A stretch of DNA of 64,000 bases, taken from a virus. The stretch lies in the IMG/VR virus record IMGVR_UViG_3300042507_005041, positions 62,001 to 126,000 of that record; one strand, 5' to 3'. This document shows positions 34,560 to 51,389 of this stretch, piece by piece. Both the position numbers and the translations under genes were made by a program. How positions within the stretch are numbered: the first letter of the stretch is position 1; each line of letters starts with the position of its first letter. Below the pieces are notes generated by a model. That model was given only the letters and a program-made list of their open reading frames with translations. It was not told where the DNA came from and searched no databases.

Positions 34560-37500
34560 ATGACTTTACCAAATCTACCTAATATTACTCAAGGGCAAAT
34601 AGCTCTTGATCCAATTAATGGAATTGTTTATTATAAAGACGATAATAATAACACCATAGCAACTACTTGGTCTTGGCTTCAAAATAGAAATGATGAACAA
34701 AATGTAACTAGTGAAAAAAATGTTTCTATTGAACAAGATCTTACTGTTGGTGGAAATTTAGTTATTGGTGGAGATACAGTTAGCATTAATGTTTCTGAAG
34801 TTTTAATTGAAGACAATATTTTAGTTTTAAATCATAACTTTACTGGTGCTCCAATACTTAATGCAGGAATTGAGATTGAACGTGGTTCTGAAAATAATGT
34901 TCAAATAAGATGGAACGAACTAGATAATAAATGGCAGTTTACAAATGATGGAATTACGTACTTAGATTTAAATTCTATTGTAGCAAATTCCGTAACCCTT
35001 GGTTTTCATACTGTAGGTGACTATGTCAAGAATCTAGTAGCTGGAACTGGTGTAACTATAACCAATAACTCTGGCGAAGGCGCAACGCCCAACATTTCAA
35101 TAGGTCAAGCTGTAGGAACTTCTAACACTGTAACTTTTGCTGGAGTCACAGCACCGTTGACAGGCAACGTTACTGGAAACGTAACTGGTAATGTAACAGG
35201 AGATGTAACAGGAACAGTTTCCAATATTTCTAACCATGGTATTTCTGATCTCTCTGATGTTAATATAAATGATGCCGCAGATGGAAACTTTTTAAGATAT
35301 AACGGATCTAACTGGTTTAATGATCCTGTTAATCTAGCAACAGATACGATTGGCGATTATGTTGCTAAACTTGCTGCTGGTACCGGCATAACAATAACCA
35401 ATAACTCAGGAGAAGGTGCAACACCTAACATTTCTTTTAGTGGATCTATAGACAGTGTTTCTGATGTTGTTATAACCTCTGCAGCCAATGGTGAATTACT
35501 AGAATTTGATGGTACGAATTGGGTTAATGCAGTCAGGCCTTCATCAGAACCAATTGGACATGAAGATAAAACTGATAGCGTTATTTCTTTTAATGAATCT
35601 ACGAGAGAGTTTTCTATTGCTCCGGTGTCAACTAGCTACACTGTATGGTGTGCTGGTAAAAGATATGTTAAAACTTCTACAGAAAAAGTAGAAATTCCAG
35701 ACACTTCTGGTCTTTATTATATCTATTTTAATTCATCTGGTTCGTTAGCCTATAAAACTACATTTTTTACTTGGGATCAAGACACTCCAACGGCTTATGT
35801 TTATTGGAATGAAGTAGACAATAAAGCCTATTTCTTTGCCGACGAGCGTCACGGCATCACTTTAGACTGGGCAACACACGAGTATCTTCATAGAACTAGA
35901 GGAGCTGCAATTGCAAATGGTTTTGGAGCCAATAACTATACTCTGATTGGCGATGGCAGCTTAGACGCTCACGCAAAAATAGATATAGCTGATGGTACAT
36001 TTTTTGATGAAGACCTGCAGGTTGATATTGAACACAGCGCATCACCAACTGCAAACACATGGCAACAGAGGCTGCAATCGGGTGCTTACATTCCTGTATT
36101 TTATAGAACAAATAATCACTGGAAAAAAGATGTGGCTACTCAATTTCCAGTTAAAAATGGTGGAACAAGAGCCCAGTACAATCTTAATACTGGGGGCACA
36201 TGGTCTAGCACAGCCATAGATAATGCTAAGTATGGTGTAATGTTCTTGGTTGCTACAAATAATTTAAACGAACCAGTTATATCTATAATGGGACAAACTC
36301 AATACACAGATCAAGGTTCAGCAGAAGCTTCAACTTGGGAACAGTTAGATTTAGGCGGGTTTCCTGTAGTAGAATTTAGGCCTTTATATAAAATTGTTTT
36401 TCAAACAGCAAATGCGTATGCAAACAGTGTAAAAACAAAATTTGTTAATTTACTAGACTTAAGGCAAATTGTATCATCTGGTGCTGGTGGTTCATCTACG
36501 GCTGTTTCTGATCATGGTTCAATGACAGGACTTAGTGACGATGATCATACGCAGTATCTACTTGCTGACGGCACACGAACTGCAACGTCTTTAACCGTAT
36601 CTGGATCTATAACTACAAATACTTTAATCCTTGATGGAATTGAAATAGATGCAGCTACCCCATCTGATACAAATGTTCTTAAATATGATGCCGGACTAAA
36701 TAAATATGTTCCAGGTGTTGCATCAACTGTAGCTTCCCTTAATGACTTAACTGATGTGGCAATAGCGGGAGCAACTGCAAACCATATATTAAAATGGGAT
36801 GGCTCACAATGGATAAATGCAGAAGTCCCAGGAACAATTGGTGGAACTACAAAATTTGAAACCATAGGTAACGGCGTTGATGAAACTTTTACTATTACTC
36901 ACAATCTTTCTACGAGGGACATTGTAGTATCTATAAGCGAAAATGTTTCCCCATATGGAGCCATCAATACTACATGGGAAGCAACAACAGAAAATACTAT
37001 TACGATTTATTTCAGTGATGCTCCAGCATCAAACTCCGTTAGAGTATCCATCTATGCCGCTGTTTCAGGTGCACTAATTGGCCCTGAAGGCCCTGCTGGA
37101 CCTACCGGACCCGAAGGGCCACCAGGTACTGTGTCAACTTCTGTTTTAGACGATCTTTCAGATGTGGTTTTAACTGGAGCTACCCCTAATAACTATTTGC
37201 AATACAATGGCTCTCAATGGATAAATAGCAATATTGATCTCGGCACAAACACTACAGGTTTTTATGTTAAAAACTTAGTTGAGGGAACGGGCATCTCTAT
37301 TACTAACAATTCAGGAGAAGGGGCTACTCCAAATATAGCAGTAAGTTCCATAGTTGTTAAGACTACGGACACTGGAACCGTAACAGATACGATGCTGGCT
37401 ACAGGGGTAGCAAGGGCAGGTTTTAGATCTACTTTAAATGCTCAGACAGGCACGTCTTATACTCTTGAGTTAACAGACTTAGCAAAGTTAATAACGCTAA

Positions 37501-37733
37501 GCAATACATCCGCAATAACTCTCACCATACCTCTTGAGTCCTCTGTGGCTTTTTCGATAGGGGACAGGATAGATATACTACAAAGTAATACTGGTCAAGT
37601 TACTATTGCTGGAGCAGGTGGAGTAACTGTCAATGCAACTCCCGGCTTAAAGTTGCGTGCAAGATGGTCTTCTGCTACACTAATTAAATTAGATACTAAT
37701 ACTTGGGTTGTAATAGGAGATATGCAGGCGTAA
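34560..37733 (+). CDS. Large fibre protein with collagen-like segment, 1057 aa
   Basis: Starts MTLPNLPNITQGQIALDPIN. Three modules of the type LSDV...G..LRYNGS.W ...VKNLV.GTGI.ITNNSGEGATPNI repeat near residues 150, 240 and 860-920. At about residue 840 a collagen-like stretch of six G-x-y triplets (GPEGPAGPTGPEGPPG) likely forms a triple helix. The C-terminal 90 residues (NATPGLKLRARWSSATLIKL) recur in the 38383 product. A trimeric adhesin; its prolines are candidate substrates for the nearby hydroxylase-like enzymes. Confidence 0.8.
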   Translation: MTLPNLPNITQGQIALDPINGIVYYKDDNNNTIATTWSWLQNRNDEQNVTSEKNVSIEQDLTVGGNLVIGGDTVSINVSEVLIEDNILVLNHNFTGAPILNAGIEIERGSENNVQIRWNELDNKWQFTNDGITYLDLNSIVANSVTLGFHTVGDYVKNLVAGTGVTITNNSGEGATPNISIGQAVGTSNTVTFAGVTAPLTGNVTGNVTGNVTGDVTGTVSNISNHGISDLSDVNINDAADGNFLRYNGSNWFNDPVNLATDTIGDYVAKLAAGTGITITNNSGEGATPNISFSGSIDSVSDVVITSAANGELLEFDGTNWVNAVRPSSEPIGHEDKTDSVISFNESTREFSIAPVSTSYTVWCAGKRYVKTSTEKVEIPDTSGLYYIYFNSSGSLAYKTTFFTWDQDTPTAYVYWNEVDNKAYFFADERHGITLDWATHEYLHRTRGAAIANGFGANNYTLIGDGSLDAHAKIDIADGTFFDEDLQVDIEHSASPTANTWQQRLQSGAYIPVFYRTNNHWKKDVATQFPVKNGGTRAQYNLNTGGTWSSTAIDNAKYGVMFLVATNNLNEPVISIMGQTQYTDQGSAEASTWEQLDLGGFPVVEFRPLYKIVFQTANAYANSVKTKFVNLLDLRQIVSSGAGGSSTAVSDHGSMTGLSDDDHTQYLLADGTRTATSLTVSGSITTNTLILDGIEIDAATPSDTNVLKYDAGLNKYVPGVASTVASLNDLTDVAIAGATANHILKWDGSQWINAEVPGTIGGTTKFETIGNGVDETFTITHNLSTRDIVVSISENVSPYGAINTTWEATTENTITIYFSDAPASNSVRVSIYAAVSGALIGPEGPAGPTGPEGPPGTVSTSVLDDLSDVVLTGATPNNYLQYNGSQWINSNIDLGTNTTGFYVKNLVEGTGISITNNSGEGATPNIAVSSIVVKTTDTGTVTDTMLATGVARAGFRSTLNAQTGTSYTLELTDLAKLITLSNTSAITLTIPLESSVAFSIGDRIDILQSNTGQVTIAGAGGVTVNATPGLKLRARWSSATLIKLDTNTWVVIGDMQA

Positions 37734-37735
37734 TT

Positions 37736-38131
37736 ATGGCTATTAACAGTGGAAGTTCATCGGGACCTAGAAAAAATAACGTTCCAAACATAGTTGGAGA
37801 CAAGCCAGCAGTTGCTGATCCAAAGTTAACTGCAGCAGAGTTTGACAAAGGCACAGTGACCGACACTCCTTTGAACGACCCTTCTGGAGGAAACTTAACA
37901 AGGCTTGATGAAATTGTATCTCAAACTCCAACATCAAACACTGTTTATCCAAGAAAAGAAGATGTTGACTACACTAAGTACGCTCCGTACTTCCCTCCCT
38001 TTTTTCCTCCCTTTTTTCCTCCGTTCTTCCCTCCTTTTTTTCCCCCTTATTTTCCTCCATTCTTTCCTCCATTCTTTCCTCCATATTTCCCTCCATATTT
38101 CCCTCCATACTTCCCTCCATTCTTTAAGTAA
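37736..38131 (+). CDS. Protein with Phe/Tyr-Phe-Pro-Pro repeat tail, 131 aa
   Basis: I start at the ATG at 37736 (MAINSGSSSGPRKNNVPNIV). The first 85 residues are polar and probably disordered. From about residue 86 to the end the chain is nothing but (Y or F)-F-P-P repeats, about eleven in a row, ending FFK. The DNA is a matching 12-base tandem repeat rich in C and T. The tail should adopt a stiff, aromatic polyproline helix. Lying between fibre genes, it is probably part of a virion appendage. Confidence 0.75.
   Translation: MAINSGSSSGPRKNNVPNIVGDKPAVADPKLTAAEFDKGTVTDTPLNDPSGGNLTRLDEIVSQTPTSNTVYPRKEDVDYTKYAPYFPPFFPPFFPPFFPPFFPPYFPPFFPPFFPPYFPPYFPPYFPPFFK
37980..38126 (+). repeat. 12-bp tandem repeat coding for FFPP units
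   Basis: Units such as TTTTTTCCTCCC, TATTTCCCTCCA and TTCTTTCCTCCA, each coding F/Y-F-P-P. Third positions vary while the peptide is held constant, which points to selection on protein rather than simple slippage. Confidence 0.8.
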
Positions 38132-38143
38132 AAGAGTTATTTG

Positions 38144-38383
38144 ATGGCTAATGTTATTAAATTAAAACGTTCTGGAACAGCATCTAGTAGCCCAACATCA
38201 TTAGAGCATGGCGAATTGGCAATTAATTATGCAGATGGAAAAATCTTTTACAAAGATAATAATAATGTAATAAATAACTTTAGTTTACTTGATAGCTCAG
38301 GTGCTATAAATATAGACGGAGGGTCAGCAGCCACAATATACTCATATGGTGGTGTAGACGAGATAGACGGAGGGGATGCGTAA
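38144..38383 (+). CDS. Fibre N-terminal-module protein, 79 aa
   Basis: ATG at 38144 (MANVIKLKRSGTASSSPTSL). It consists almost only of the attachment-type module found at the start of the 32339 and 38383 products (EHGELAINYADGKIFYKDNN), with a short Gly-rich tail. One-base overlap with the next gene. It could cap or adapt the fibre base. Confidence 0.65.
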   Translation: MANVIKLKRSGTASSSPTSLEHGELAINYADGKIFYKDNNNVINNFSLLDSSGAINIDGGSAATIYSYGGVDEIDGGDA

Positions 38384-39336
38384 TGGCTTCTAAGATTCAA
38401 TTAAGACGTGACACAGCCGCAAACTGGACATCAGTTAATCCCATCCTTGCATCTGGAGAAATAGGATTTATTACAGATACAAATAAATTAAAAATTGGCA
38501 ATGGTTCAACTGCCTTTAACTCTTTGTCATTTTTTAATGGAAATCTTACTGGTTCAGTACTTGATGATTTATCTGATGTAACTATTACATCTGCAACAAA
38601 TGGTGACTTTCTTCGTTGGAATGGTACGGCATGGATCAATGATGCAGTTAATCTGTCTACCGACACGGTTGGAGATTATGTCGCCTCACTTGTTGCTGGA
38701 ACTGGAATAACTCTTTCAAATAACTCTGGAGAGGCATCAACACCTACAATTGCACTTACAAATTCTTCTCTTACAGTTAATGGAACGTCAATATCGCTTG
38801 GTGGAACAGCAACTATAACAGCAGCAGCAGGAACTTTAACTGGATCTACCCTTGCCTCAGGGGTAACTTCGTCAAGCTTAACTTCATTTGGTTCTACTCC
38901 AACCATAACTGCACCAGTATTAACACTGTCTACTTCTGCGTCTACTACAGATGCTAGAATATCCTGGGATTCAACGAATAAAAAAATAGTAGTTGGAAAT
39001 GGCTCGATATCTTTAGACTTTGCCCCAGCAAATGTTATTACGAATGCTCAAACAGCCAGTTATACCCTTGCTTTATCAGATAAAGATAAGCTGGTTGAAA
39101 TAGACAACGCTTCAGCAAATAACTTAACTGTTCCTCTTGAATCTTCCGTAGCATTTCCAATTGGTACACAAATAAGTGTTCTTCAAACTGGAGCAGGAAC
39201 AACAACACTTGTTGCTGCTGGTGGGGTAACAATAAACGCTACCCCAGGCTTAATACTAAGAGCCAGATGGTCTTCCGTTACCCTAATAAAAAGAGCAGCT
39301 AATACTTGGGTTGCAATTGGCGACTTAAGGGCCTAA
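38383..39336 (+). CDS. Short fibre protein, 317 aa
   Basis: Starts MASKIQLRRDTAANWTSVNP, followed by the module ILASGEIGFITDTNKLKIGN. Then one copy of LDDLSDVTITSATNGDFLRW and GTGITLSNNSGEASTPTIAL, and a C-terminal domain (INATPGLILRARWSSVTLIK) nearly matching the 34560 protein. It looks like a shortened paralogue of the large fibre. It ends against the leftward oxygenase gene with a few bases of overlap. Confidence 0.75.
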   Translation: MASKIQLRRDTAANWTSVNPILASGEIGFITDTNKLKIGNGSTAFNSLSFFNGNLTGSVLDDLSDVTITSATNGDFLRWNGTAWINDAVNLSTDTVGDYVASLVAGTGITLSNNSGEASTPTIALTNSSLTVNGTSISLGGTATITAAAGTLTGSTLASGVTSSSLTSFGSTPTITAPVLTLSTSASTTDARISWDSTNKKIVVGNGSISLDFAPANVITNAQTASYTLALSDKDKLVEIDNASANNLTVPLESSVAFPIGTQISVLQTGAGTTTLVAAGGVTINATPGLILRARWSSVTLIKRAANTWVAIGDLRA

Positions 39337-39884
39337 TCTTTTTTAATACACCAAAAATTAGTTGAACACCAACGGTATCCGCTTTTTATTTCTCTTACTT
39401 GATGGGGGAATTCATCTTTAGCTGGAAAACAAATAAACATTCCAGGTTTTGGTTTTATTAATAAATCTTGATTGGGAAAATAAATTTCTCCGCCCTCGTA
39501 GTCATCATTATAATAAAGAACAGAACTAATGTCTCTGGTTGGATGTCCAGCTCCAGTTTTTAATCCAACACTTTCATTTAAGGAAGATCCGTGATCAAGA
39601 TGAACTGGCATTGAATCCCCAGTCTTTAACTCAACTACACTACTTACTCCCTCGTCGTAGACATTGCAATTAAAAGAAGATTCTATAATATTTTTAATTT
39701 TGCTATAGTTAGGTTCAAGTAAATTGGCTAGTATAGGACTACCTCCACCTGCATATACTCCATATGGAGAATACCCAGTTTCATCAAAAGTAACTGGTGT
39801 ATTTTTTAAATAAAATATAATTTCTTCTAAATTTTTTTCATCTAAAACATCTTCTATAACGTAAACTTTATCCACATTACTCAT
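39333..39884 (-). CDS. 2-oxoglutarate/Fe(II) oxygenase (prolyl hydroxylase-like), 183 aa
   Basis: A compact jelly-roll oxygenase. The iron ligands are H95-x-D97 (PVHLDHG) and H161 (EFPHQVREI), and R171, ten residues on, should bind 2-oxoglutarate. The core phrase VLYYNDDYEGGEIYFPNQDL is typical of P4H-type phage enzymes. It should couple decarboxylation of 2-oxoglutarate to hydroxylation of a protein or small substrate. Leftward gene, tandem with the next oxygenase and convergent with the fibre genes. Confidence 0.88.
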   Translation of the reverse strand: MSNVDKVYVIEDVLDEKNLEEIIFYLKNTPVTFDETGYSPYGVYAGGGSPILANLLEPNYSKIKNIIESSFNCNVYDEGVSSVVELKTGDSMPVHLDHGSSLNESVGLKTGAGHPTRDISSVLYYNDDYEGGEIYFPNQDLLIKPKPGMFICFPAKDEFPHQVREIKSGYRWCSTNFWCIKKD

Positions 39885-39885
39885 G

Positions 39886-40509
39886 TTATCTCAATTCAGT
39901 AATTGTATAAAAAGATGGAGTTGTATATCTTTCTCCGGAAATAAGCGGCTTAACTCCATGTAGATAATTTATATCTCCGGGATGAGCAACGGCTAATCCT
40001 GGATTAGGCTTTACTACCAAATCATGATCTGGGTAATACAATTCTCCTCCTTCAAAATCATCATTATAGTAAAATAAAGAATTTATATCATAGGTTGGAA
40101 AAGGATTTGGTCTTCCATCATTTGTCTGCTTGTCTGCATGTGGTCTCTGTTCCATTCCAGGACGCCACTTAATTATCACCGGAGGCCTAGTTGACAAACC
40201 TACGTTAAAAGACGTCTCTAAATATTGTTTCATTTTTAAAATATATTTATCAATAATATTATAAACTTGAATATTAATTTTATGAAGAATATCCCAACTG
40301 CACTGTCTGTCAGCCCAGTAGGAAGCATCATATATACAAGTGCCGTCATCGGCATATTGGTTCTCTCCAGCATCCATCCATTCGTTGATAGTAGGTAAAA
40401 ATTTTTGAATTATTTTAATATCTTCTAATTCAATAAAGTTATTGATAATCTTTATATTACTTTTTGATGAACCAAAATGTCCAGGTTCTACAAGCGATTT
40501 TTCTTCCAT
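39886..40509 (-). CDS. 2-oxoglutarate/Fe(II) oxygenase, 207 aa
   Basis: Ligands H124-x-D126 (QRPHADKQT) and H184 (NYLHGVKPL), with R194 for 2-oxoglutarate; core FYYNDDFEGGELYYPDHDL. Closest in layout to the oxygenase at 39333, suggesting duplication, but with a longer N-terminal helical region. Start MEEKSLVEPGHFGSSKSNIK. Divergent from the oxygenase at 40611. Confidence 0.88.
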   Translation of the reverse strand: MEEKSLVEPGHFGSSKSNIKIINNFIELEDIKIIQKFLPTINEWMDAGENQYADDGTCIYDASYWADRQCSWDILHKINIQVYNIIDKYILKMKQYLETSFNVGLSTRPPVIIKWRPGMEQRPHADKQTNDGRPNPFPTYDINSLFYYNDDFEGGELYYPDHDLVVKPNPGLAVAHPGDINYLHGVKPLISGERYTTPSFYTITELR

Positions 40510-40610
40510 TTTTATCCTACTTACGAAATACCAAGTTGCGTTGCTCGCCTTACAGTGATATAGTATATCGTTAAACCTAGTAGGTAATCAATTTTGATTT
40601 GGAGAATAAA
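40510..40610. promoter_or_regulatory. Divergent promoter region between oxygenase genes
   Basis: About 100 bases between oppositely transcribed genes, holding a GATATAGTATATC palindrome-like block near 40557-40570 that could supply -10 elements in one or both directions. No TTACTATWWT box found. Confidence 0.35.
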
Positions 40611-41285
40611 TTGGAAATTTATAACGTAGACGATCCTAAGCTTGGAATAATTTTGTACAGAAAAGCTGTGCCCGACGATTTAAATATACCGACAAGGTTG
40701 GAAGAGACACTTGCCAATAGCGATCACGAATACTATAAATGGAATGAAGCTATGGTTGGACACAACACTAGTATGCCAGACTATAGAGACTGTTTTGACC
40801 TAAAGGTTGGGCCAAAACATTGGTCAACTCTACCTGAAAAGTTCTCCGCCATTAAAGAAGTATACGAAGATTATAACGAGGTTTTAGACAAGTGTTTAGC
40901 CGACTATGAATCTAGATACAATTTTAAAATGGAATTTATGGAGGCGATTAACTTCATTAAGTATAATCCAGGTCAACACTTTCAAGTTCATACCGATTCT
41001 GGCTTTTCTTACTTCTGCACACTCTCTTCAGTAGGCTGGTTTAATGACGACTACGAAGGGGGAGAGTTATGGTTTCCTTATATTAATTTAAAATTTAAAC
41101 CACAAAAAGGTGACGTCTTATTCTTTCCATCTAATTACATTTTTGCACATGCATCAATGGAAGTAACTAGCGGCATTAAATATAGTGCAGTTACAATGTA
41201 TAACTATAATGAGATAGGACAGTCAAATACTTTGGCTACTTCAGCTTCAACTGCAGCCTCTCCACTTTTGTCAAAGGCTAAATAG
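40611..41285 (+). CDS. 2-oxoglutarate/Fe(II) oxygenase, 224 aa
   Basis: I start at the TTG at 40611, six bases after GGAG (MEIYNVDDPKLGIILYRKAV). Iron ligands H127-x-D129 (FQVHTDSGF) and H180 (FAHASMEV). The position that normally holds the 2-oxoglutarate Arg is Lys190 (TSGIKYSAV), so co-substrate binding may differ. Core FNDDYEGGELWFPYINLKFK. Ser/Ala-rich C-terminal tail. Confidence 0.85.
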   Translation: MEIYNVDDPKLGIILYRKAVPDDLNIPTRLEETLANSDHEYYKWNEAMVGHNTSMPDYRDCFDLKVGPKHWSTLPEKFSAIKEVYEDYNEVLDKCLADYESRYNFKMEFMEAINFIKYNPGQHFQVHTDSGFSYFCTLSSVGWFNDDYEGGELWFPYINLKFKPQKGDVLFFPSNYIFAHASMEVTSGIKYSAVTMYNYNEIGQSNTLATSASTAASPLLSKAK

Positions 41286-41296
41286 TTTTTATAAAA

Positions 41297-42007
41297 ATGA
41301 CAAAACTAACCTTAACAAGAACCCATCAAAATCCTCCTGAGATAAAGCAGTCAAGATTAAAAAGAGACTGGATGGATGATACCTACAATAAGCATGCCTA
41401 TAAGTGTCTACCAATGTCAGCAGCTAACGTTAATGGCTGGGAGATGGTATTGCAGCAAGATGTTGTGGTTCAATGGGATGGTGGCAATACACCGCCCAGA
41501 GTTTTAGAGGGTGAATTTTTAAATGGAAGACCTGTTGTAATTCCATCAATTATAGGAATTATATCATTTGCTACCGGGTGGGCCATAAACACAGAAGAAG
41601 GTTATGACACCTGGATCACTGGGTCTCCTAATTATTTTGTAGATGGAGCAGTTCCACTTTCTGCAACAATACCAAGCTTTTGGTGGCCAGATGAATTCAA
41701 TATGAATTGGAAGATAACCAAGGTCGGAGAGCCAGTTACATTTAAAGCCGGAATGCCGTTTATGTTCTTCAACATATATAAAAATGACCTACTTTCCAGT
41801 GTTGAGATAGAAGTAGAAAATCTTTGGGACAAACAAGACCTAATGGACCAAAGACAATCTTATGGTGACGCCAAAATGAAAAAGAACCAAGAGCAACCAT
41901 GGACTTGGATGAATGGGATTAGGTCTGGATTAAACGAAAAAAATGAAAGAATTGGTCCTAGAACTGAGGGCCTACTTAAGCTAAGCGAACCCAAAAAACT
42001 TGATTAA
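41297..42007 (+). CDS. DUF6065-like protein, 236 aa
   Basis: Starts MTKLTLTRTHQNPPEIKQSR. The layout resembles the family annotated DUF6065 in marine bacteria and phages: YKCLPMSAANVNGWEMVLQQ, then VVVQWDGGN, IGIISFATGWAINTEEGYD and SFWWPDEFNMNWK. Function of that family is not known to me; it is often found beside 2-oxoglutarate oxygenases. Assignment is by recalled pattern only. Confidence 0.55.
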   Translation: MTKLTLTRTHQNPPEIKQSRLKRDWMDDTYNKHAYKCLPMSAANVNGWEMVLQQDVVVQWDGGNTPPRVLEGEFLNGRPVVIPSIIGIISFATGWAINTEEGYDTWITGSPNYFVDGAVPLSATIPSFWWPDEFNMNWKITKVGEPVTFKAGMPFMFFNIYKNDLLSSVEIEVENLWDKQDLMDQRQSYGDAKMKKNQEQPWTWMNGIRSGLNEKNERIGPRTEGLLKLSEPKKLD

Positions 42008-42558: not shown

Positions 42559-42843
42559 ATGGATAATATCGTCAGTTTAAACAAAGAGTACAGCTTTTTG
42601 TATACTGAATTTATTGATAAAAATATCTATATCTTACCTAAAAATGAATTCTTTCCAGAAAACAAAACATTTGTTTTTATAGGAAAAATGAAATTTAAAT
42701 ACAAAATTAAAAGAATACAACCGGTGTCCACCACTAGTGATGGGCATCTTTTTTGTTTTACTCCTAAGATTTTAGGAACTTATCACTTAGAAGTCTATGA
42801 AGGTAAAGATCTTCTAGATACTTTAAAAATAGAGGTAATATAA
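42559..42843 (+). CDS. Small beta-rich (Ig-like) protein, 94 aa
   Basis: Starts MDNIVSLNKEYSFLYTEFID. Strand-rich, ending GTYHLEVYEGKDLLDTLKIE, resembling a small Ig-like sandwich. Leaderless by position. Overlaps the acyltransferase start by one base, so it may serve as its translational leader or partner. Confidence 0.55.
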   Translation: MDNIVSLNKEYSFLYTEFIDKNIYILPKNEFFPENKTFVFIGKMKFKYKIKRIQPVSTTSDGHLFCFTPKILGTYHLEVYEGKDLLDTLKIEVI

Positions 42844-44198
42844 TGTATCAACTTACTGCGATAGATTATGAGTTTTATAAAGACATAGACAACCATAGTT
42901 CTGTAGTTGGAAATATATGTATATTATCAAACAAAAGTGGCAAAAGAATAAAAGATCAGATTCTAAAAAATATAGAAAAAAACATCAACTCAAGCATAAT
43001 TCACAGTCATAAAATAGTCCCAAGTACAACGTTTAAAGACTATCCTTTTTTTATAAAAGATAAAAATTTAAATATAAAAGATCACATTTATGAACACTTT
43101 TCTGACAAATCAGATATTAAAAGTAGTTTAATATATAGAGATATTATTTCATCTGCTCTAGACCCTGATGCACCGCTATGGGATATTCACATAATATACG
43201 GAATAAATGAACAAGATGACACCGCAATCATAAGAAGATATCACCACTGCTTGGGTGATTCAGATGCTCATCAAAATGTTCATAACATTATTTTTGACAA
43301 TTATTCTGGCAAAAAAATAAAGAGCAACAAAAAAATAAATAAGTTAAATTCTTTTTTTAACCATTTTTATAAACTAATTAAAAGTTATTTAATTTTAATT
43401 TATGGTTTTATTTTTAAAATAAACCACTGCAATGAGTCTTATAAGATTGATAAGAAGCAAATACATAAAGGTCAATTTAGACTTAAAAAGCATAAGCAAA
43501 ATAATATAAGCTTTTTTTCGCATGATATTTCTAGTTTAAAAAACAACTTAAAGAAAAATGATGTAACTATCCTAGAGATGTGCATGTACATTACATCATC
43601 AATCTATAAGCAGCTACTGCCTACTTCTGAAGATAAAACAATCTTAACAATGTTTCCAATTTCATATAGAAAAAGAAAACATCCCAACTGCAATAACATG
43701 GCTACAGCAGCAAAAATTAATCTTCATTTAGACGAAAAAGATAGTCATAAAAGATTAATTAAAATTAAAAAAGAATTAAGAAATAAAATAATAATTCTTA
43801 AAAAAGGTCCACATGTAGTTTATGATAGAGCTTTTGGTGTCGATCCTAGGATAAGTAAGTTTAAAAGAAATTGGGATATATTCAATAAAGCTAATTGGCA
43901 CGATAGAAAAAAAATATATAAAAAAGACGATTCTTTACCAATGATATCTACAACAACTTCTTTTAAGAAGAACAAAGACGATGTCGGACTATTGTCAGAT
44001 GACTATGTAAAAGAAGTCTACAATTTTAGCACTATAAGCAAGACAGTATTTTCTACAGGGTGCTCTATCTCGTATAGATTATATGGAGACAAGTTAAATA
44101 TTGGAGTAATTTATTCTGAAGACTTGTATTCAGATAGTCAGATTTTTAAAACTTTATTTGAAAAATCTATAGAAGAATTTAAAAAAGTTTGTGATTAA
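42843..44198 (+). CDS. WS/DGAT-family acyltransferase-like protein, 451 aa
   Basis: Shows the two marks of the wax-ester-synthase/diacylglycerol-acyltransferase family: PLW in PDAPLWDIHI (about residue 108-117) and the catalytic HHxxxD, H134-H135 and D139, in RYHHCLGDSDAH. A later NNMATAAKINLHLDEKD region occupies the place of the second-lobe motif. These enzymes transfer acyl groups from acyl-CoA to alcohols or other acceptors. The usual final Gly of HHxxxDG is Ser here. Very Lys/Ile-rich and more AT-rich than the virion genes. Followed by the P450. Confidence 0.78.
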   Translation: MYQLTAIDYEFYKDIDNHSSVVGNICILSNKSGKRIKDQILKNIEKNINSSIIHSHKIVPSTTFKDYPFFIKDKNLNIKDHIYEHFSDKSDIKSSLIYRDIISSALDPDAPLWDIHIIYGINEQDDTAIIRRYHHCLGDSDAHQNVHNIIFDNYSGKKIKSNKKINKLNSFFNHFYKLIKSYLILIYGFIFKINHCNESYKIDKKQIHKGQFRLKKHKQNNISFFSHDISSLKNNLKKNDVTILEMCMYITSSIYKQLLPTSEDKTILTMFPISYRKRKHPNCNNMATAAKINLHLDEKDSHKRLIKIKKELRNKIIILKKGPHVVYDRAFGVDPRISKFKRNWDIFNKANWHDRKKIYKKDDSLPMISTTTSFKKNKDDVGLLSDDYVKEVYNFSTISKTVFSTGCSISYRLYGDKLNIGVIYSEDLYSDSQIFKTLFEKSIEEFKKVCD

Positions 44199-44199
44199 T

Positions 44200-45393
44200 A
44201 TGAATTTACAAGAAGATTATTCAGAATTTTTAGAAATAACATTAAAGTCAAAAGATGATCAATATAAATATTTTGATGAAAAAAAACAAAAAGAACCAAT
44301 ATTTAAAATAAAAAATGATCATTGGATAGTGTCTAGATATGATGACATTAATACAATATTAAGAAGTGATAGCTTTTTAAGAATGACTGACCCCAACGAA
44401 AATGATCCTGTTAGATCACTTTTGGATTTAGATTTTGAAGATCATAGCAAATATAGAAAAATGTTAAATCAAGTTTTTAACTCATCTTTAGTTAAAAAAT
44501 TAAAGATAGAACAAAAGGTTGAAGAAAATTTAAAACAAATAAAGAGCAAAGAAATAATAGACGTAGTTAAAGATATAGCGGTACCAGTTCCTCTCCAGGT
44601 GATAATGGAAATACTAGGTGCACCCATGCCGCAAGAAGAAGAAGCTTTATTAATCAAAAGCTGGGCTAGTAATATATTTAATTCAGTTGGTGTTCACATA
44701 ACCAGAAGTGGCTACAAGCAGTACATAGAGGATATGGAAAGTTTGTGTACATATTTGATTAATGTAATATTTAGTGATAAATACAAAAAACAAGATGGAT
44801 TAATTAACTATTTAAAAAATTATTATATTGATGGCAAAAAAATAACCAACCAAGAAATCTTGTCGATATGTGCGTTGATATTTGTTGCTGGCTTTGAGAC
44901 AAATGTTGGCTCAATAACCTCTTCTATCTTTAGTATTGCTCAAGATGAAGAGCTTTTATCTAATTTTCAAAATCTGCAAATTCAAGATAAAACATCTCAA
45001 ATTTCGGATGAGCTGATAAGACACTCTTCTAGTGTTTGCTATGCAGCAAGAAGGGTTGGCCAAGACTATGTGTTTTACCAAGATTCAGATAATCCGGTAT
45101 TTTTATCAGAAGGTGATTTCGTCCTTGCACACCTAGAATCTGGCAATAGAGATTCTATGATATTTGAAAGTCCACATGATATAATTCTAGACAGACACAA
45201 TTCAAATAAGCATCTAGGTTTCGGGGTTGGGGTGCACTACTGTTTGGGAGCCATGCTAGCCAGAGCAGAAGTGTCTCCAGTGGTTGATTACTTTTTTAAA
45301 AATGTTAAAAATCCAAGAATTACTGGAAACCCGGTAAGACATCCCAGTTATGCTATTAATGGCTTTTCTGAGTTATGTGTGACGACAGGTTGA
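44200..45393 (+). CDS. Cytochrome P450, 397 aa
   Basis: I use ATG 44200 (MNLQEDYSEFLEITLKSKDD). All signature elements of a soluble bacterial P450 are present: I-helix VAGFETNVGS (about residue 230), ExxR as E271-L-I-R274, and heme loop HLGFGVGVHYCLGAMLARAE with the thiolate Cys348. Length is typical. It needs redox partners (ferredoxin and reductase), none of which lie in the window, so the host would supply them. Tightly linked to the acyltransferase, suggesting hydroxylation and acylation of one substrate. Confidence 0.93.
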   Translation: MNLQEDYSEFLEITLKSKDDQYKYFDEKKQKEPIFKIKNDHWIVSRYDDINTILRSDSFLRMTDPNENDPVRSLLDLDFEDHSKYRKMLNQVFNSSLVKKLKIEQKVEENLKQIKSKEIIDVVKDIAVPVPLQVIMEILGAPMPQEEEALLIKSWASNIFNSVGVHITRSGYKQYIEDMESLCTYLINVIFSDKYKKQDGLINYLKNYYIDGKKITNQEILSICALIFVAGFETNVGSITSSIFSIAQDEELLSNFQNLQIQDKTSQISDELIRHSSSVCYAARRVGQDYVFYQDSDNPVFLSEGDFVLAHLESGNRDSMIFESPHDIILDRHNSNKHLGFGVGVHYCLGAMLARAEVSPVVDYFFKNVKNPRITGNPVRHPSYAINGFSELCVTTG

Positions 45394-46912: not shown

Positions 46913-47230
46913 ATGGTCCAATCTAATTATTCATTAAACGTAAGTGGAAAATGGAATCTTACTGTTGACACACCATTTGGCAAAGAAGAATACTCTTTAA
47001 ATATATCTAATATAAATGGAAGCTTAACTGGATCAGTTTCTCACGAAAAAGGAGAGGCCATCATAAGCGATGCATCTTTGCTAGACGGAGCATTCAAGTG
47101 CTCACTAAATGTTGATTACCCCATAAAAGCCACTGTATACTTGCAGGCAAGTGTTATCGACAGTAATAAGATGTTTGGAACGCTGCAGATTGATCAGTAT
47201 TTAGAAACCTTATTTGTTGGGTCAAGATAA
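46913..47230 (+). CDS. Small lipocalin-like beta protein, 105 aa
   Basis: Starts MVQSNYSLNVSGKWNLTVDT. The repeating pattern GKWNLTVDTPFGKEEYSLNI, GSLTGSVSHEKGEA and LDGAFKCSLNVDYPIKATVY resembles small beta-barrel domains that bind hydrophobic ligands. It overlaps the peroxidase-fold gene by one base. Might bind a lipid product of the island; inferred. Confidence 0.55.
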   Translation: MVQSNYSLNVSGKWNLTVDTPFGKEEYSLNISNINGSLTGSVSHEKGEAIISDASLLDGAFKCSLNVDYPIKATVYLQASVIDSNKMFGTLQIDQYLETLFVGSR

Positions 47231-47844
47231 TGGGATTATATAACTTTACTTCCTCTTCAATACATGGAAAAGAAAACTACCTTGCTGAGTTTGATGGCAA
47301 TGTAACTCTAGTGGTAAATATAGCTAGCAAGTTTGGATATGAACCCCAATGCTCAAAGCTATGGTCGTATGCAAGAACTGGAAGACAGCTTTGGCAATTG
47401 CAGTCAGTGCATGATGAGTTTAAAGATAGGGGCTTTTCTGTTTTAGCATTTCCATGCAATCAGTTTGGTTCAATGGACCCAGGCACTAATGAGGAAATAG
47501 CAGATTTTATCAAATGCAATTATCCTTTTGTTACTTTTCCTATTTTTGAAAAAGTTGAAGTAAATGGAAAAAATGAACATGAAATATTTTCCTTTCTTAA
47601 AGGTTATGAAAAAAGAGCTTATTCTGACTTTGCTGCAGATGGCTCAGAAGAAGCTAAGAAGGGTCAAAATTTAGCAGGTCAAGCAATGGCAAGAATCTCT
47701 CATAATTATGAAAAGTTTTTAGTGAGCAGAGATGGAATTATGATATCTAGATTTAATTGGCAGGATATGCCACTAGATGAAATTCCTAGAATTCAAGGTG
47801 CAGGCTGGACAATTAGAGAAGCAATAGATGAGGTATTAGGGTAA
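47230..47844 (+). CDS. Glutathione peroxidase fold protein lacking catalytic Cys, 204 aa
   Basis: The fold is clear: LVVNIASKFGYEPQCSKLW, VLAFPCNQFG, FPIFEKVEVNGKNEHEIFSF and NYEKFLVSRDGIMISRF. In active enzymes the NVASKC/U position is Cys or Sec; here it is Phe35. Gln78 and Asn159 of the tetrad remain, but the Trp position is His158. Cys41 and Cys76 remain. Peroxidase chemistry by the usual route is therefore unlikely; another thiol or binding role is possible. The start overlaps the previous stop. Confidence 0.85.
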   Translation: MGLYNFTSSSIHGKENYLAEFDGNVTLVVNIASKFGYEPQCSKLWSYARTGRQLWQLQSVHDEFKDRGFSVLAFPCNQFGSMDPGTNEEIADFIKCNYPFVTFPIFEKVEVNGKNEHEIFSFLKGYEKRAYSDFAADGSEEAKKGQNLAGQAMARISHNYEKFLVSRDGIMISRFNWQDMPLDEIPRIQGAGWTIREAIDEVLG

Positions 47845-48950
47845 TGGAAAATTCTAACAATAAAAAACTAAGTAGTATCGCCTATCCTGTTTCGCCAAAG
47901 ATAGGTGAAGATGAGATAAAAGAAATAGCTAATTTTGAATATGAAGAGTTGGCACCTGGTGTCGTGGTCATAAAGAACGCCTTTAAAATAAACGAAGAGC
48001 TAATACTTTCTCATATCGACTCTAGAGCAGAAGAAGCACACAGAACTAGATGGACGTGGATAAAAGATGAAGAGGGACAAGAATATGGAATCAATGAAGA
48101 CGGTTTTAGATACAGACCTGAAGACGTCCCCAATGCTCCCGTTAGACTACTTGATCCAGTAAATCCAGATACTGAAGAAGAGATAAAAGATTTTTTTATT
48201 TATTTAGAAAATCAAATCTACAAAGGATTGTTAAAGTACATTGACTTTTATCCACTCATGATTGGCAGCATCTGGTGGAAAACTAGGGGCCATATTTTAA
48301 GATACGGAGATGGTGGGATACTCGGTTGTCACGCAGACAATGATACAAACTATAAGGTAACCAATGGGATTAGGTACATGCCTAAAGGAATGGTTGCGTC
48401 CAGACAAACATGTGGAGCTTTGGTTTACTTAAATGATTCTGTTGACACAGAAGAAGAATTAAATGGAAGAAACTTTACTGGTGGAAATCTTAGATTTGTT
48501 CATTTAAAAATTTCTTACAAACCAAAAAAGGGAGACATAATATTTTTCCCAACAAATTATGTTGCGTCTCACGATGTTGAAAAAATGGGCAGTGGGGTTA
48601 GATATTCTTATTTAACATTTTTTGGACAGGGAGCAAGTGATCAAGCTACTAATATAGTCATAACAGAACCCGATCAAAGTTTTGAATGGTGCCCTCCAGT
48701 ATGGTTGAATAATATATATGATGACTATGAAAGATTCTGTAGAACCCCATATTCATTCTGGGAGAATGCAGGAAAGTACAATTTAGAAGCAGGATGGAAC
48801 CCAGTCTATCAAGGCAGAGAGATAGTTCAATATAATAAGTCACACGACGCTCTTGAATTAGAAGATAAAACTGAAGAAAACAAAGGTTCGTTGATTGGCG
48901 ATAACGAATTACATGAAGGACCTTGTGGCACTAACCCTATTGAAATATGA
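47844..48950 (+). CDS. 2-oxoglutarate/Fe(II) oxygenase, large paralogue 1, 368 aa
   Basis: First of four related enzymes with layout GVVVIKNA, GFRYRPED, WWKTRGHILRYGDGG, iron ligands H163-x-D165 (GCHADNDT) and H243 (VASHDVEKM), and R253. The core NFTGGNLRFVHLKISYKPKK leads into GDIIFFPTNY. It has an extra C-terminal 90 residues absent from the others. One-base overlap with the peroxidase-fold gene and a four-base overlap with the next oxygenase. Confidence 0.88.
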   Translation: MENSNNKKLSSIAYPVSPKIGEDEIKEIANFEYEELAPGVVVIKNAFKINEELILSHIDSRAEEAHRTRWTWIKDEEGQEYGINEDGFRYRPEDVPNAPVRLLDPVNPDTEEEIKDFFIYLENQIYKGLLKYIDFYPLMIGSIWWKTRGHILRYGDGGILGCHADNDTNYKVTNGIRYMPKGMVASRQTCGALVYLNDSVDTEEELNGRNFTGGNLRFVHLKISYKPKKGDIIFFPTNYVASHDVEKMGSGVRYSYLTFFGQGASDQATNIVITEPDQSFEWCPPVWLNNIYDDYERFCRTPYSFWENAGKYNLEAGWNPVYQGREIVQYNKSHDALELEDKTEENKGSLIGDNELHEGPCGTNPIEI

Positions 48951-49882
48951 AGATCTCAATAGATGATTTAAATATAGAAAAGCACGACATGGGAATAGTT
49001 GTGTTTAAAAATGTCATACAAATGAAAGAGTATGACTATGTGTTGGATAAAATTTCTTTAATGAAAAAAGAAGCTATTGAAAAAGATTACACAATTATTA
49101 ATGACGAACTAGGAAAACCACTTTACGCCATCAATAGAAGTGGTCATAGATACGCAATTGATGATCTAGAAAAATCCTGTAGTCATATTATGAATTTTGT
49201 CAATGAATATAGCGATGAAAAGTATATAAGCTTTTTTGAAATGTGTGAACAGGCACTATACCAATGCTTGATTAGATATGTGGAATTTTTTCCTATGATG
49301 CTCCCCTGCCTTTGGTGGAGAACCCAAGGTCACATAGTCGCATATGGCCCTGGGAGCAGTTTTGGGACCCATTGTGACAATGATGTAAACTACAAGCCAG
49401 GAGCTGAACCAGATCAGCAATTAGCAATTAGAAATGTAGTTGGTGGATTGATTTATTTTAATGACTCTGTAGATGAAGATGATTTTTCTGAAAAGAAAAA
49501 AAACTACATAGGAGGAAAGATAATATTCCCGTATGCTAATTTTACTTACACTCCTAAATCTGGAGATGTAATAATGTTTCCATCCAATTATCTTGGAACA
49601 CATGAGGTTGAAAATGTTACAAGAGGAGAAAGATACGCCTATGTAGGATATTTCGCTCAGGGATCAAATGATTCCTCAAAGGGGATAAACATAAGAAACC
49701 CTTCTCCTGTAATAGATAGTGGTCAAGTCTGGATGCCCGACATAGTTTCAGATTACGTTAAGAGTGTAGATCTTCGTCATTCAGATAAATCCAAAAAAGA
49801 ATATAATAAACTAGTTCAGGCGTGTGATAGACAATACACTAGCGACAATACTAATAAAGAATTGGAACATAAAAATGTTTAA
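48947..49882 (+). CDS. 2-oxoglutarate/Fe(II) oxygenase, large paralogue 2, 311 aa
   Basis: Ligands H142-x-D144 (GTHCDNDV), H219 (GTHEVENV) and R229. Shares LWWRTQGHIVAYGPG and GDVIMFPSNYLGTHEV with its neighbours. Start overlaps the upstream stop (ATGA) and its stop overlaps the next start. Substrate unknown. Confidence 0.88.
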   Translation: MKISIDDLNIEKHDMGIVVFKNVIQMKEYDYVLDKISLMKKEAIEKDYTIINDELGKPLYAINRSGHRYAIDDLEKSCSHIMNFVNEYSDEKYISFFEMCEQALYQCLIRYVEFFPMMLPCLWWRTQGHIVAYGPGSSFGTHCDNDVNYKPGAEPDQQLAIRNVVGGLIYFNDSVDEDDFSEKKKNYIGGKIIFPYANFTYTPKSGDVIMFPSNYLGTHEVENVTRGERYAYVGYFAQGSNDSSKGINIRNPSPVIDSGQVWMPDIVSDYVKSVDLRHSDKSKKEYNKLVQACDRQYTSDNTNKELEHKNV

Positions 49883-50753
49883 CAATGTAAAAGGAAAAAA
49901 CTTAGGTGGTGGCGTTATTCTTTTCGAAAACGCAATAAATTTAGACTGGAAAAAAGTTGTAACTAAATCTTCAGACTTAATACAACAAGAGTGGGAAGAT
50001 ATGTATAAGCCAGCTTTAGATCCAGAAACTGGAGAAGAAGTTTACATTAATAAAAGCGGTTACTTTTTTGGCAAAAACAATATCGACTCAATGCCGATGA
50101 GAGCATCTGCTATTCATTTAAGTGACGATGAATATGTTCAAGATATTTTGCTACAATTAGAAGGGTGTAGAGATAAATATCTTTTGAAGTATTTAGAAAT
50201 CTTTCCACTAGCATACAAATGTATATGGTGGAAGGTGAAGGGTCATATTTTAAAGTATAAAAAGGGTGTTTATTTAGGTTCACATTCTGATATAAGTGCA
50301 GATTACGTATATGATGTTTGGGAACCAAAAGATCAGTTGGCCCTTAGAAATGTTGTTACTTGTTTAATATATTTTAATTCTTCTGTATCTTCTAATGAAG
50401 AAATAAAAGATGATGAATATGTTGGTGGTTCTCATTATTTTAATTATTTAGATATTGAATATACTCCTAAAGCTGGCGATATTATGTTTTTTCCCTCTAA
50501 TTACATGGCCGCACATGAAGTAAAGCCGGTTACAAGCGGCGAAAGATACTCTTACCTTGGTTGGTATAGTCAGGGCACTCCAAATCCAGCTGTACACGAA
50601 TATGTAGCAGATCCAATAAAAGAACCACAGCTAGCAACAAAGGCGACTAATGTGTATATGCCAACACTTAGAGAAGATTTTAGATCATATCTTTTAGAGT
50701 CTGGATACAGTGAAGATTCTCCACAGTTGTATATTACAAAATCAAATTATTAA
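49875..50753 (+). CDS. 2-oxoglutarate/Fe(II) oxygenase, large paralogue 3, 292 aa
   Basis: I start at ATG 49875 (MFNNVKGKNLGGGVILFENA), which aligns with the paralogues; the longer frame has no support. Ligands H137-x-D139 (GSHSDISA), H214 (AAHEVKPV) and R224. Core EYVGGSHYFNYLDIEYTPKA, with His replacing the usual acidic residue after the GG. Confidence 0.88.
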   Translation: MFNNVKGKNLGGGVILFENAINLDWKKVVTKSSDLIQQEWEDMYKPALDPETGEEVYINKSGYFFGKNNIDSMPMRASAIHLSDDEYVQDILLQLEGCRDKYLLKYLEIFPLAYKCIWWKVKGHILKYKKGVYLGSHSDISADYVYDVWEPKDQLALRNVVTCLIYFNSSVSSNEEIKDDEYVGGSHYFNYLDIEYTPKAGDIMFFPSNYMAAHEVKPVTSGERYSYLGWYSQGTPNPAVHEYVADPIKEPQLATKATNVYMPTLREDFRSYLLESGYSEDSPQLYITKSNY

Positions 50754-50762
50754 GATTTAACT

Positions 50763-51389
50763 ATGAGATATAATGAAACGGAAAGAAGTATTGACTCAAA
50801 TACTACACATATATTTTATGTGGACGGATCTCATAGACAGGGCAACAACACGCTGAGAAGATTAATGCTAGATTGCTTCCCTACAATTTCTATCAATAAA
50901 CCATTAAGGCACACTGTAGATAATTTTAATCAGGCTTTATTAGATAATGACATCGTGATAGCAACACTTAGACATCCAAAAGAATCAATTAATTCTTTTT
51001 GTGGATACAAAAAAATTAACCCACTAGACAAAAAAGAAATAACTATGTATTTAGAATTTTACAACTATCTTCATCAGTTTTTATTTTTAAATAAGAATAA
51101 AATTTACTTTATAGACTTTAATGACATAATAACCAAACCGCATGGAATTGTAAATTATTTTAAAGATAAATTTTTAATAAAAAATAATAATGTATCAAAA
51201 TATGAAAATTTAACACAAACGCCGTTTTTTACTTTTATTGACGAAAACGGTGTAGATGGTCATAATAAAACTTCAAGTTTAGACACAGAAGATAAACTAT
51301 CCTGGATGTTAGAAAATAGTTATTATAAAGATTCAGAAAATTTATATAAAAGTTTATTATTAGAAAAAATTCAATTAGAGGACAAATAA
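50763..51389 (+). CDS. Sulfotransferase-like P-loop protein, 208 aa
   Basis: Starts MRYNETERSIDSNTTHIFYV. Residues about 21-34 (DGSHRQGNNTLRRL) resemble the 5'-phosphosulfate-binding loop of PAPS-dependent sulfotransferases, and ATLRHPKESINSF (about 67-79) resembles the 3'-phosphate motif with its R-x-P...S. Shorter than typical members and set between two oxygenases. It could sulfate a hydroxyl made by them. A nucleotide-kinase-like fold is the alternative. Confidence 0.6.
   Translation: MRYNETERSIDSNTTHIFYVDGSHRQGNNTLRRLMLDCFPTISINKPLRHTVDNFNQALLDNDIVIATLRHPKESINSFCGYKKINPLDKKEITMYLEFYNYLHQFLFLNKNKIYFIDFNDIITKPHGIVNYFKDKFLIKNNNVSKYENLTQTPFFTFIDENGVDGHNKTSSLDTEDKLSWMLENSYYKDSENLYKSLLLEKIQLEDK

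Follow-up and report, generated by a model that had tools for sequence, protein, structure and literature searches.

Recurrent pairing of aromatic-proline-proline repeat arrays with prolyl-hydroxylase-like oxygenase genes in phage genomes

Introduction

Oxygenases dependent on 2-oxoglutarate (2OG) and Fe(II) are common auxiliary genes of aquatic phages, and we know of no established substrate for them. Among viruses of eukaryotes, the enzyme vCPH of chlorella virus PBCV-1 reportedly acts on proline-containing peptides of the virus itself, going by the title of a 1999 study by Eriksson. This work concerns a 64,000-nucleotide stretch of viral DNA, hereafter the window (bases 62001-126000 of the 133,418-base uncultured-virus record IMGVR_UViG_3300042507_005041 of IMG/VR). 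In it, a gene for a protein with a C-terminal array of (F/Y)FPP repeats (the FFPP protein and FFPP array) lies near predicted 2OG-Fe(II) oxygenase genes, named OxyA to OxyG (Table 1).

Related ideas are already in print. A passage in PMC9301287 suggests that a phage prolyl 4-hydroxylase (P4H) may act on tail-fibre collagen, and the Phold paper (a passage of PMC12774648) points out phage 2OG oxygenases that look like human EGLN3. For cyanophage 2OG oxygenases, ties to 2OG or nitrogen signalling and DNA repair are proposed in part of PMC3037559. No description of FFPP-type arrays in phages was found in a search of the open-access literature of PubMed Central (PMC).

Co-occurrence with oxygenase genes

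The pairing of repeat and hydroxylase-like genes is strongly supported by gene content across records. For the comparison, 50 of 72 listed FFPP records of at least 20 kb were set beside 50 records fetched by a random 15-mer; the latter, four of them shorter than 20 kb, are unmatched for habitat or phage group, and relatedness of records inflates every count. The oxygenase family PF13640 was found in 46 of the 50 FFPP records, mostly with 5-15 hits, compared with 4 of the 50 random records and 3 of the 49 that are free of FFPP (Fisher p ~1e-19, kinship ignored). The sole random record with an FFPP array is also the sole one with more than two PF13640 hits (six hits). By profile search, oxygenases occur in 5 of 120 random loci. 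One of these, L458, has FFPP, and no aromatic-PP array was seen in the DNA examined of L521, L452 and L459. Two oxygenase-rich loci that lack a strict array have variant repeats: FF(S/G)PP in L212, and FFPP with FF(A/S)PP repeats on a 680-amino-acid fn3-like protein in L440, a random locus with six oxygenases.

From the capsid lineage of the window, searches with capsid or terminase supplied 29 records of 40 kb or more. The array is present in 18 and absent from 11, some of which may be fragments that simply miss the region. Thirteen array-bearing records have 6-10 PF13640 hits; the other five have 0-3, and their array lies within ~9 kb of a contig end. The array-free records have 2, 0, 7, 1, 1, 0, 1, 0, 0, 1 and 0 hits. 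The one with seven (G109) carries the variant FF(S/G)PP in its PASTA-type gene, and the two longer than 200 kb have 2 and 1. Because only 2 of 32 FFPP records tested carry the capsid protein of the window, the pairing appears to span further phage groups, or else fragments without the capsid gene. A search for T4-type gp23 gave no match in 32 FFPP records or in the record of the window itself, and the controls were equally silent.

A DNA pattern of three and a half FFPP units was searched for in IMG/VR and in 84,980 species genomes. It occurs in at least 120 stretches of IMG/VR and in four stretches of the species genomes, all in metagenome-assembled bins: L164 and L166 (Gammaproteobacteria), L163 (Verrucomicrobiales) and L165 (Magnetococcales). 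Since oxygenases lie 3' of the array in L163 and L164, these two may be phage contigs. No oxygenase was seen in the ~5.6 kb beside the array in L165, and the examined DNA of L166 stops at the array. Searching phage isolates by tblastn with the FFPP protein and two fn3-type FFPP proteins gave no match, under the low-complexity masking of BLAST. The pattern scan of isolates was confined to 11 cyanophage records, none of which has it.

Gene order and oxygenase phylogeny

Adjacency was counted on a gene set that keeps FFPP and oxygenase open reading frames (ORFs) first and holds 130 distinct FFPP ORFs. An oxygenase is the immediate next gene in 41 of 115 FFPP ORFs, across gaps of 8-445 nt and on the same strand in 35 of the 41. 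At least one of the four downstream genes is an oxygenase in 74 of 85 ORFs, and at least one of the four upstream genes in 2 of 35. A within-locus position test gave 33 observed against 22.0 expected, a value reached in 13 of 10,000 permutations, on an incomplete gene set that kept the FFPP ORF in 89 of 120 loci.

In the window itself, three such oxygenases had been proposed to begin within 1.3 kb of the repeat gene. The block does start 1.2 kb after that gene; OxyC itself, however, begins at a distance of 2.5 kb, and four more oxygenase genes at 47.8-52.2 kb bring the number to seven.

The linkage also appears when the enzymes are taken as the starting point. Among OxyC relatives (80 of 118 taken), 35 loci extend more than 6 kb upstream, and 30 of these have the array on the same strand no more than 6.5 kb upstream. 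Among OxyB relatives (80 of 302 taken), 55 of 80 loci contain an array, as do 24 of the 26 that reach 5 kb or more in each direction; in every case the array is 3' of OxyB and the two converge, the nearest pair being 75 nt apart. The arrangement differs in fn3-type loci, where 7 of 8 rows place the OxyB-clade enzyme downstream of the array and on its strand. Three loci (L583, L585 and L601) contain two FFPP arrays ~6 kb apart with one OxyB.

A tree of 77 rows, 46 of them FFPP-adjacent and 24 from cyanophages, was built; it has several long branches, and its carrier types were assigned by text pattern, with fn3 confirmed only for Pfam-tested proteins. Most of the enzymes nearest to the arrays are orthologues of OxyB and OxyC of the window. 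The OxyB clade (support 100/99) contains 15 rows, namely eight fn3-type, six PASTA-type and the window. The OxyC clade has 19 rows (support 97/92), and a third FFPP-adjacent clade consists of five fn3-type rows (support 100/99). Nine of the 46 FFPP-adjacent rows fall outside these three clades, as do all 24 cyanophage enzymes. OxyD-OxyG form a clade of their own, apart from OxyA-OxyC, and may differ in substrate. Of 19 arrays next to OxyC-clade enzymes, 12 show the irregular pattern FFPFFP; of 19 next to enzymes of the other two clades, none does (kinship ignored).

Predicted activity of the oxygenases

OxyA, OxyC, OxyD and OxyE pass the PF13640 cut-off of 27 bits (scores in Table 1). OxyB alone, at 24.9 bits, lies just below it, with clear profile and fold matches. 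The best solved sequence relative of OxyA is human prolyl 3-hydroxylase 1 (P3H1; entry in Table 1), and that of OxyC is the P4H of Bacillus anthracis (2e-5). The OxyB profile finds P3H1 (1.7e-9), PiuC and P4H, and the OxyC profile finds P4H and PiuC. The OxyB model (pLDDT 93.2) has PBCV-1 vCPH (PDB 5c5t) as its top Foldseek match (E 1.6e-10). With VIA-align 2, the top matches are P3H1 (Z 16.9) and PHD2 (Z 16.5), again with vCPH among them; Z values are 16-17, with root-mean-square deviations of 2.3-5.2 and identities of 13-19% to these three.

With residue roles assigned from known P4Hs, the Fe ligands H124, D126 and H184 and the 2OG-binding R194 of OxyB are invariant in 25 of 25 sequences. 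The corresponding H131, D133, H184 and K194 of OxyC are invariant in 17 of 17. The OxyB model is nearest in fold to protein prolyl hydroxylases, and all catalytic residues are present. In the Synechococcus phages ACG-2014f and S-T4 (L524, L526), genes annotated as ferrochelatase contain a 2OG oxygenase domain, and the oxygenases also match PHROG families labelled, for example, DNA endonuclease V.

The repeat protein and other carriers

The FFPP protein consists of an N-terminal domain followed by the array. The domain matches PASTA (PF03793) below the gathering score (17.4 vs 23.2 bits, E 0.0043; query with one extra upstream codon). With a 13-sequence profile, PknB PASTA chains are found (E 2.8e-4). 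In the AlphaFold2 model the domain is confident (pLDDT ~80-93), and Foldseek matches it to the PknB PASTA structure 5e12 (E 7e-5). The array has pLDDT ~53-61 and no regular secondary structure in the model; it is probably an extended, polyproline-II-like segment, which could form a rod of ~14 nm. Because it is half aromatic and half proline, it would be expected to aggregate unless partnered or modified. Its position between capsid and sheath genes, among fibre genes, would fit a location of the protein in the virion.

About eleven (F/Y)FPP repeats had been described at the end of this gene, and 11 complete units followed by FFK were indeed found; Tandem Repeats Finder reports a 12-base period at 37994-38125. 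The suggestion that the repeat is constrained at the peptide level was borne out across the loci examined, which hold 108 distinct arrays of at least 5 units (range 5-34, median 11). Unit residues 2-4 are invariant by definition of the unit, and their third codon positions differ between neighbouring units at 1516 of 3780 sites; 182 of 1260 neighbouring pairs are identical in DNA. Only residue 1 is free to vary, and it is F in 871 units, Y in 366, H in 117, W in 11 and another residue in 3, so aromatic or His in 1365 of 1368.

The domains ahead of the array are unrelated between phages, being PASTA or fn3. Ten other FFPP carriers were tested with Pfam: five have fn3 domains above the cut-off, one has Peptidase_S74, and two have weak Hint matches below the cut-off. 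By text pattern, 46 of 130 FFPP proteins finish in a short tail with FK. The window FFPP protein matches no PHROGs family and none was found for the array; 3 of 7 other carriers have PHROGs matches, which are weak or outside the array. Three carriers run into Hint- or intein-like C-terminal domains: L073 8066-9304 (-) and L092 3566-6478 (+), called by weak Pfam matches, and L440 9096-11135 (-), called by eye. Such tails hint at self-splicing or cleavage after the array.

The collagen-like run

The large fibre upstream of the FFPP gene had been said to contain a collagen-like run of G-x-y triplets. The run is real: it comprises six triplets (GPEGPAGPTGPEGPPGTV), and among 2000 shuffles of the 1057-residue protein a run of six arose in none and a run of five in six. 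A passage in PMC3368898 states that collagen P4H acts on proline in position Y. The run in the window has one Y-Pro, and the collagen-like runs in the examined loci (1203 triplets) have 568 prolines in X and 43 in Y. Because the prolines fall in X and seldom in Y, the collagen part of the original prediction is weak, and this short run was set aside as a collagen P4H substrate. In the DNA examined, most oxygenase-bearing FFPP loci have no collagen-like run; on the incomplete gene set, 14 of 120 FFPP loci have one and 86 have an oxygenase.

In Synechococcus phage S-CAM9 (L540 12399-19414), a GPT-rich collagen-like protein of 1830 amino acids is followed by one small gene and two 2OG oxygenases. 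Since this GPT-rich fibre precedes two oxygenases, a collagen-oxygenase link is possible elsewhere than in FFPP loci.

Proposed function and alternative explanations

The original prediction held that the phage modifies its own proline-rich proteins. This idea holds up for the FFPP array through co-occurrence, downstream adjacency and shared enzyme clades, and not for the collagen-like run. We consider it fairly probable that FFPP arrays are inherited together with OxyB/OxyC-type oxygenases as a single functional module, in which the oxygenases would hydroxylate the prolines of the array. The array would form the C-terminal extension of a small domain with a virion or adhesion role; this domain is PASTA here and fn3 in other phages. 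OxyB/OxyC-type enzymes would act on it with 2-oxoglutarate and O2 in the infected cell, before assembly. Prolyl hydroxylation increases polarity and fixes proline pucker, and here it might lend controlled solubility, stiffness or stickiness to a repeat that is otherwise strongly hydrophobic. Enzyme class, fold and repeat jointly suggest prolyl hydroxylation as the reaction; aromatic or histidyl hydroxylation of the array is a possible alternative chemistry. We infer proline as the target, the array as the substrate and an effect of the modification from this context, and hydroxylation of the FFPP protein may harden the fibre.

Several observations weigh against this proposal. PF13640 is absent from 4 of the 50 FFPP records and has a single hit in another 4, and 11 of the 85 FFPP ORFs with four downstream genes have no oxygenase among them. 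Each of the 11 cyanophage isolates tested gives 4-11 PF13640 hits but lacks an FFPP array, so such oxygenases also have other roles. The fold of the OxyB model would leave its substrate unfixed, and PiuC, which its profile also finds, is by name no prolyl hydroxylase. Two fibre genes sit between the FFPP gene and OxyA in the window; therefore other fibres are possible substrates. The PBCV-1 precedent is mixed and calls for caution, since an analysis cited as reference 162 of the chlorovirus review PMC7019647 reportedly detected no hydroxyproline in PBCV-1 particles. The hydroxylation described here is itself a prediction from genes.

The position of those fibre genes would also suit an explanation that we regard as unlikely, in which the oxygenases modify other products of a tail/fibre cassette (glycans, fibres or a small molecule) and FFPP merely marks one cassette end. 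Cyanophage oxygenases likewise adjoin tail genes without FFPP, and the enzyme region of the window also holds P450, WS/DGAT and glutathione-peroxidase genes. The constant partner, however, is FFPP and not the inserted fibres, with an oxygenase as next gene in 41 loci. In addition, the OxyB linkage persists despite its differing orientation to FFPP between phage groups, and the variants FFSPP and FFAPP occur where the strict array is missing. Kinship might instead explain the pairing if one oxygenase-rich phage clade happened to have FFPP proteins, since many records are related and the excess in the position test is moderate. We hold this to be improbable, because the capsid protein of the window is rare among FFPP records, the PASTA and fn3 carriers are non-homologous, and array and enzyme cluster are gained and lost together inside the capsid lineage of the window.

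The structural relatives of OxyB include solved EF-Tu-binding prolyl hydroxylases of bacteria, and the titles of PDB entries 5v7y and 4iw3 name EF-Tu as a bacterial P4H partner. A host protein such as EF-Tu could thus be the target, with the FFPP neighbourhood due to chance or shared late expression, but this would leave both the strict downstream position and the covariation of array pattern (FFPFFP) with enzyme clade unexplained and seems very improbable. Tandem near-identical units beside oxidising enzymes also recall multi-copy precursors of a modified small peptide, akin to ribosomally synthesised and post-translationally modified peptides, matured by the oxygenases and P450. This is scarcely credible: the units have no spacers or cleavage sites between them, the arrays finish in xFK or run into folded tails, and many carriers are long fn3 proteins.

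If the proposed hydroxylation of FFPP arrays is correct, protein hydroxylation would join the phage toolkit for adhesion structures, and FFPP arrays would serve as a marker for them. More broadly, an undescribed large class of aquatic phages might use hydroxylated aromatic-Pro-Pro rods, each having dedicated prolyl hydroxylases, as building material for surface structures; we hold this idea tentatively and with some doubt. Comparative genomics here proposes a concrete repetitive peptide substrate adjoining two enzyme clades, and the question is therefore testable with synthetic peptides.

Organization of the window

The features of the window are listed in Table 1. The best isolate relatives of its capsid protein are from Bacillus phage KLEB27-3 (45%) and Moorella phage MTATph1 (40%). 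No tRNA genes were found in the window. The enzyme region includes an AT-rich part at 42843-45393 (GC 26-32%, 2-kb windows) with two genes that are odd cargo for a phage, one for a WS/DGAT-type acyltransferase and one for a cytochrome P450. A glutathione peroxidase gene (47230-47844) lies immediately 5' of the OxyD-OxyG cluster (47844-52195), which encloses one gene of 208 amino acids without family assignment.

Table 1. Predicted features of the window (window coordinates; aa, amino acids)
Feature	Position	Strand	Basis or context
Terminase	17594		Window gene order
Portal	24199		Window gene order
Major capsid protein	29624		Window gene order
Fibre region	30.8-39.3 kb		Between major capsid protein and oxygenase/enzyme region
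Fibre-like protein, 1057 aa	34560..37733	+	Upstream of FFPP gene; partial match to PHROG tail-fibre families
Six collagen-like G-x-y triplets, GPEGPAGPTGPEGPPGTV	37080..37133	+	Within 1057-aa fibre-like ORF; Pro mostly in x
FFPP-repeat protein, 131 aa	37736..38131	+	ORF and relatives
PASTA-fold domain, aa 13-83 of FFPP protein	37772..37984	+	Profile; AlphaFold2 model and Foldseek
Array of 11 (F/Y)FPP units, aa 85-128, then FFK	37988..38119	+	
Fibre-N-terminus-like protein, 80 aa	38141..38383	+	Between FFPP gene and oxygenases
Fibre-like protein, 317 aa, Mtd_N domain	38383..39336	+	Pfam Mtd_N E 1.5e-18
Oxygenases and other enzymes	39.3-52.2 kb		3' of fibre region
OxyA, 2OG-Fe(II) oxygenase	39333..39884	-	PF13640 42 bits; 8k0e E 4.4e-8
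OxyB, 2OG-Fe(II) oxygenase, main FFPP-adjacent clade, prolyl-hydroxylase fold	39886..40509	-	Profile, tree, model
OxyC, 2OG-Fe(II) oxygenase, second FFPP-adjacent clade	40599..41285	+	PF13640 39.1 bits
DUF6065 protein, immediately 3' of OxyC	41297..42007	+	Pfam PF19541 E 5.4e-44
OxyD, 2OG-Fe(II) oxygenase, second paralogous cluster	47844..48950	+	PF13640 42.4 bits
OxyE, 2OG-Fe(II) oxygenase, second cluster	48947..49882	+	PF13640 36.5 bits
OxyF, 2OG-Fe(II) oxygenase, second cluster	49824..50753	+	
OxyG, 2OG-Fe(II) oxygenase, second cluster	51389..52195	+	
Tail sheath (putative)	56382		After enzyme region; assigned from its sequence

Comparison with known systems

The N-terminal domain of the FFPP protein shares the fold of PASTA domains in PknB-type kinases and penicillin-binding proteins, but the phage protein has a single short PASTA domain joined to an FFPP array. 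PR-39, mussel and extensin proteins contain xFPP-like or Y-Pro-Pro repeats, and the mussel and plant ones are hydroxylated. The likeness is one of repeat pattern, and unlike these proteins the phage arrays have no fixed charge except in His units. If the arrays are hydroxylated, phages would have their own counterpart to the chemistry of extensins or mussel adhesives.

Human P3H1 and the collagen prolyl and lysyl hydroxylases are the best relatives of OxyA and OxyB in sequence and structure. In contrast to them, the phage enzymes are single-domain proteins, share 13-19% identity with them across the fold, and have no collagen-type Y-Pro substrate nearby. The cyanophage 2OG-Fe(II) oxygenases of PHROG 61 belong to the same superfamily and are often close to tail genes, but they stand apart from the FFPP-adjacent clades in the tree and come from isolates without an array (11 of 11). 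The PBCV-1 enzyme, like OxyB, is a virus-encoded prolyl-hydroxylase fold. PBCV-1, however, is a eukaryotic algal virus with another repeat, whereas the genomes described here are those of bacteriophages with (F/Y/H/W)FPP arrays and conserved gene adjacency, and if the proposal is true this would be the first known bacteriophage to hydroxylate its own proline repeats.

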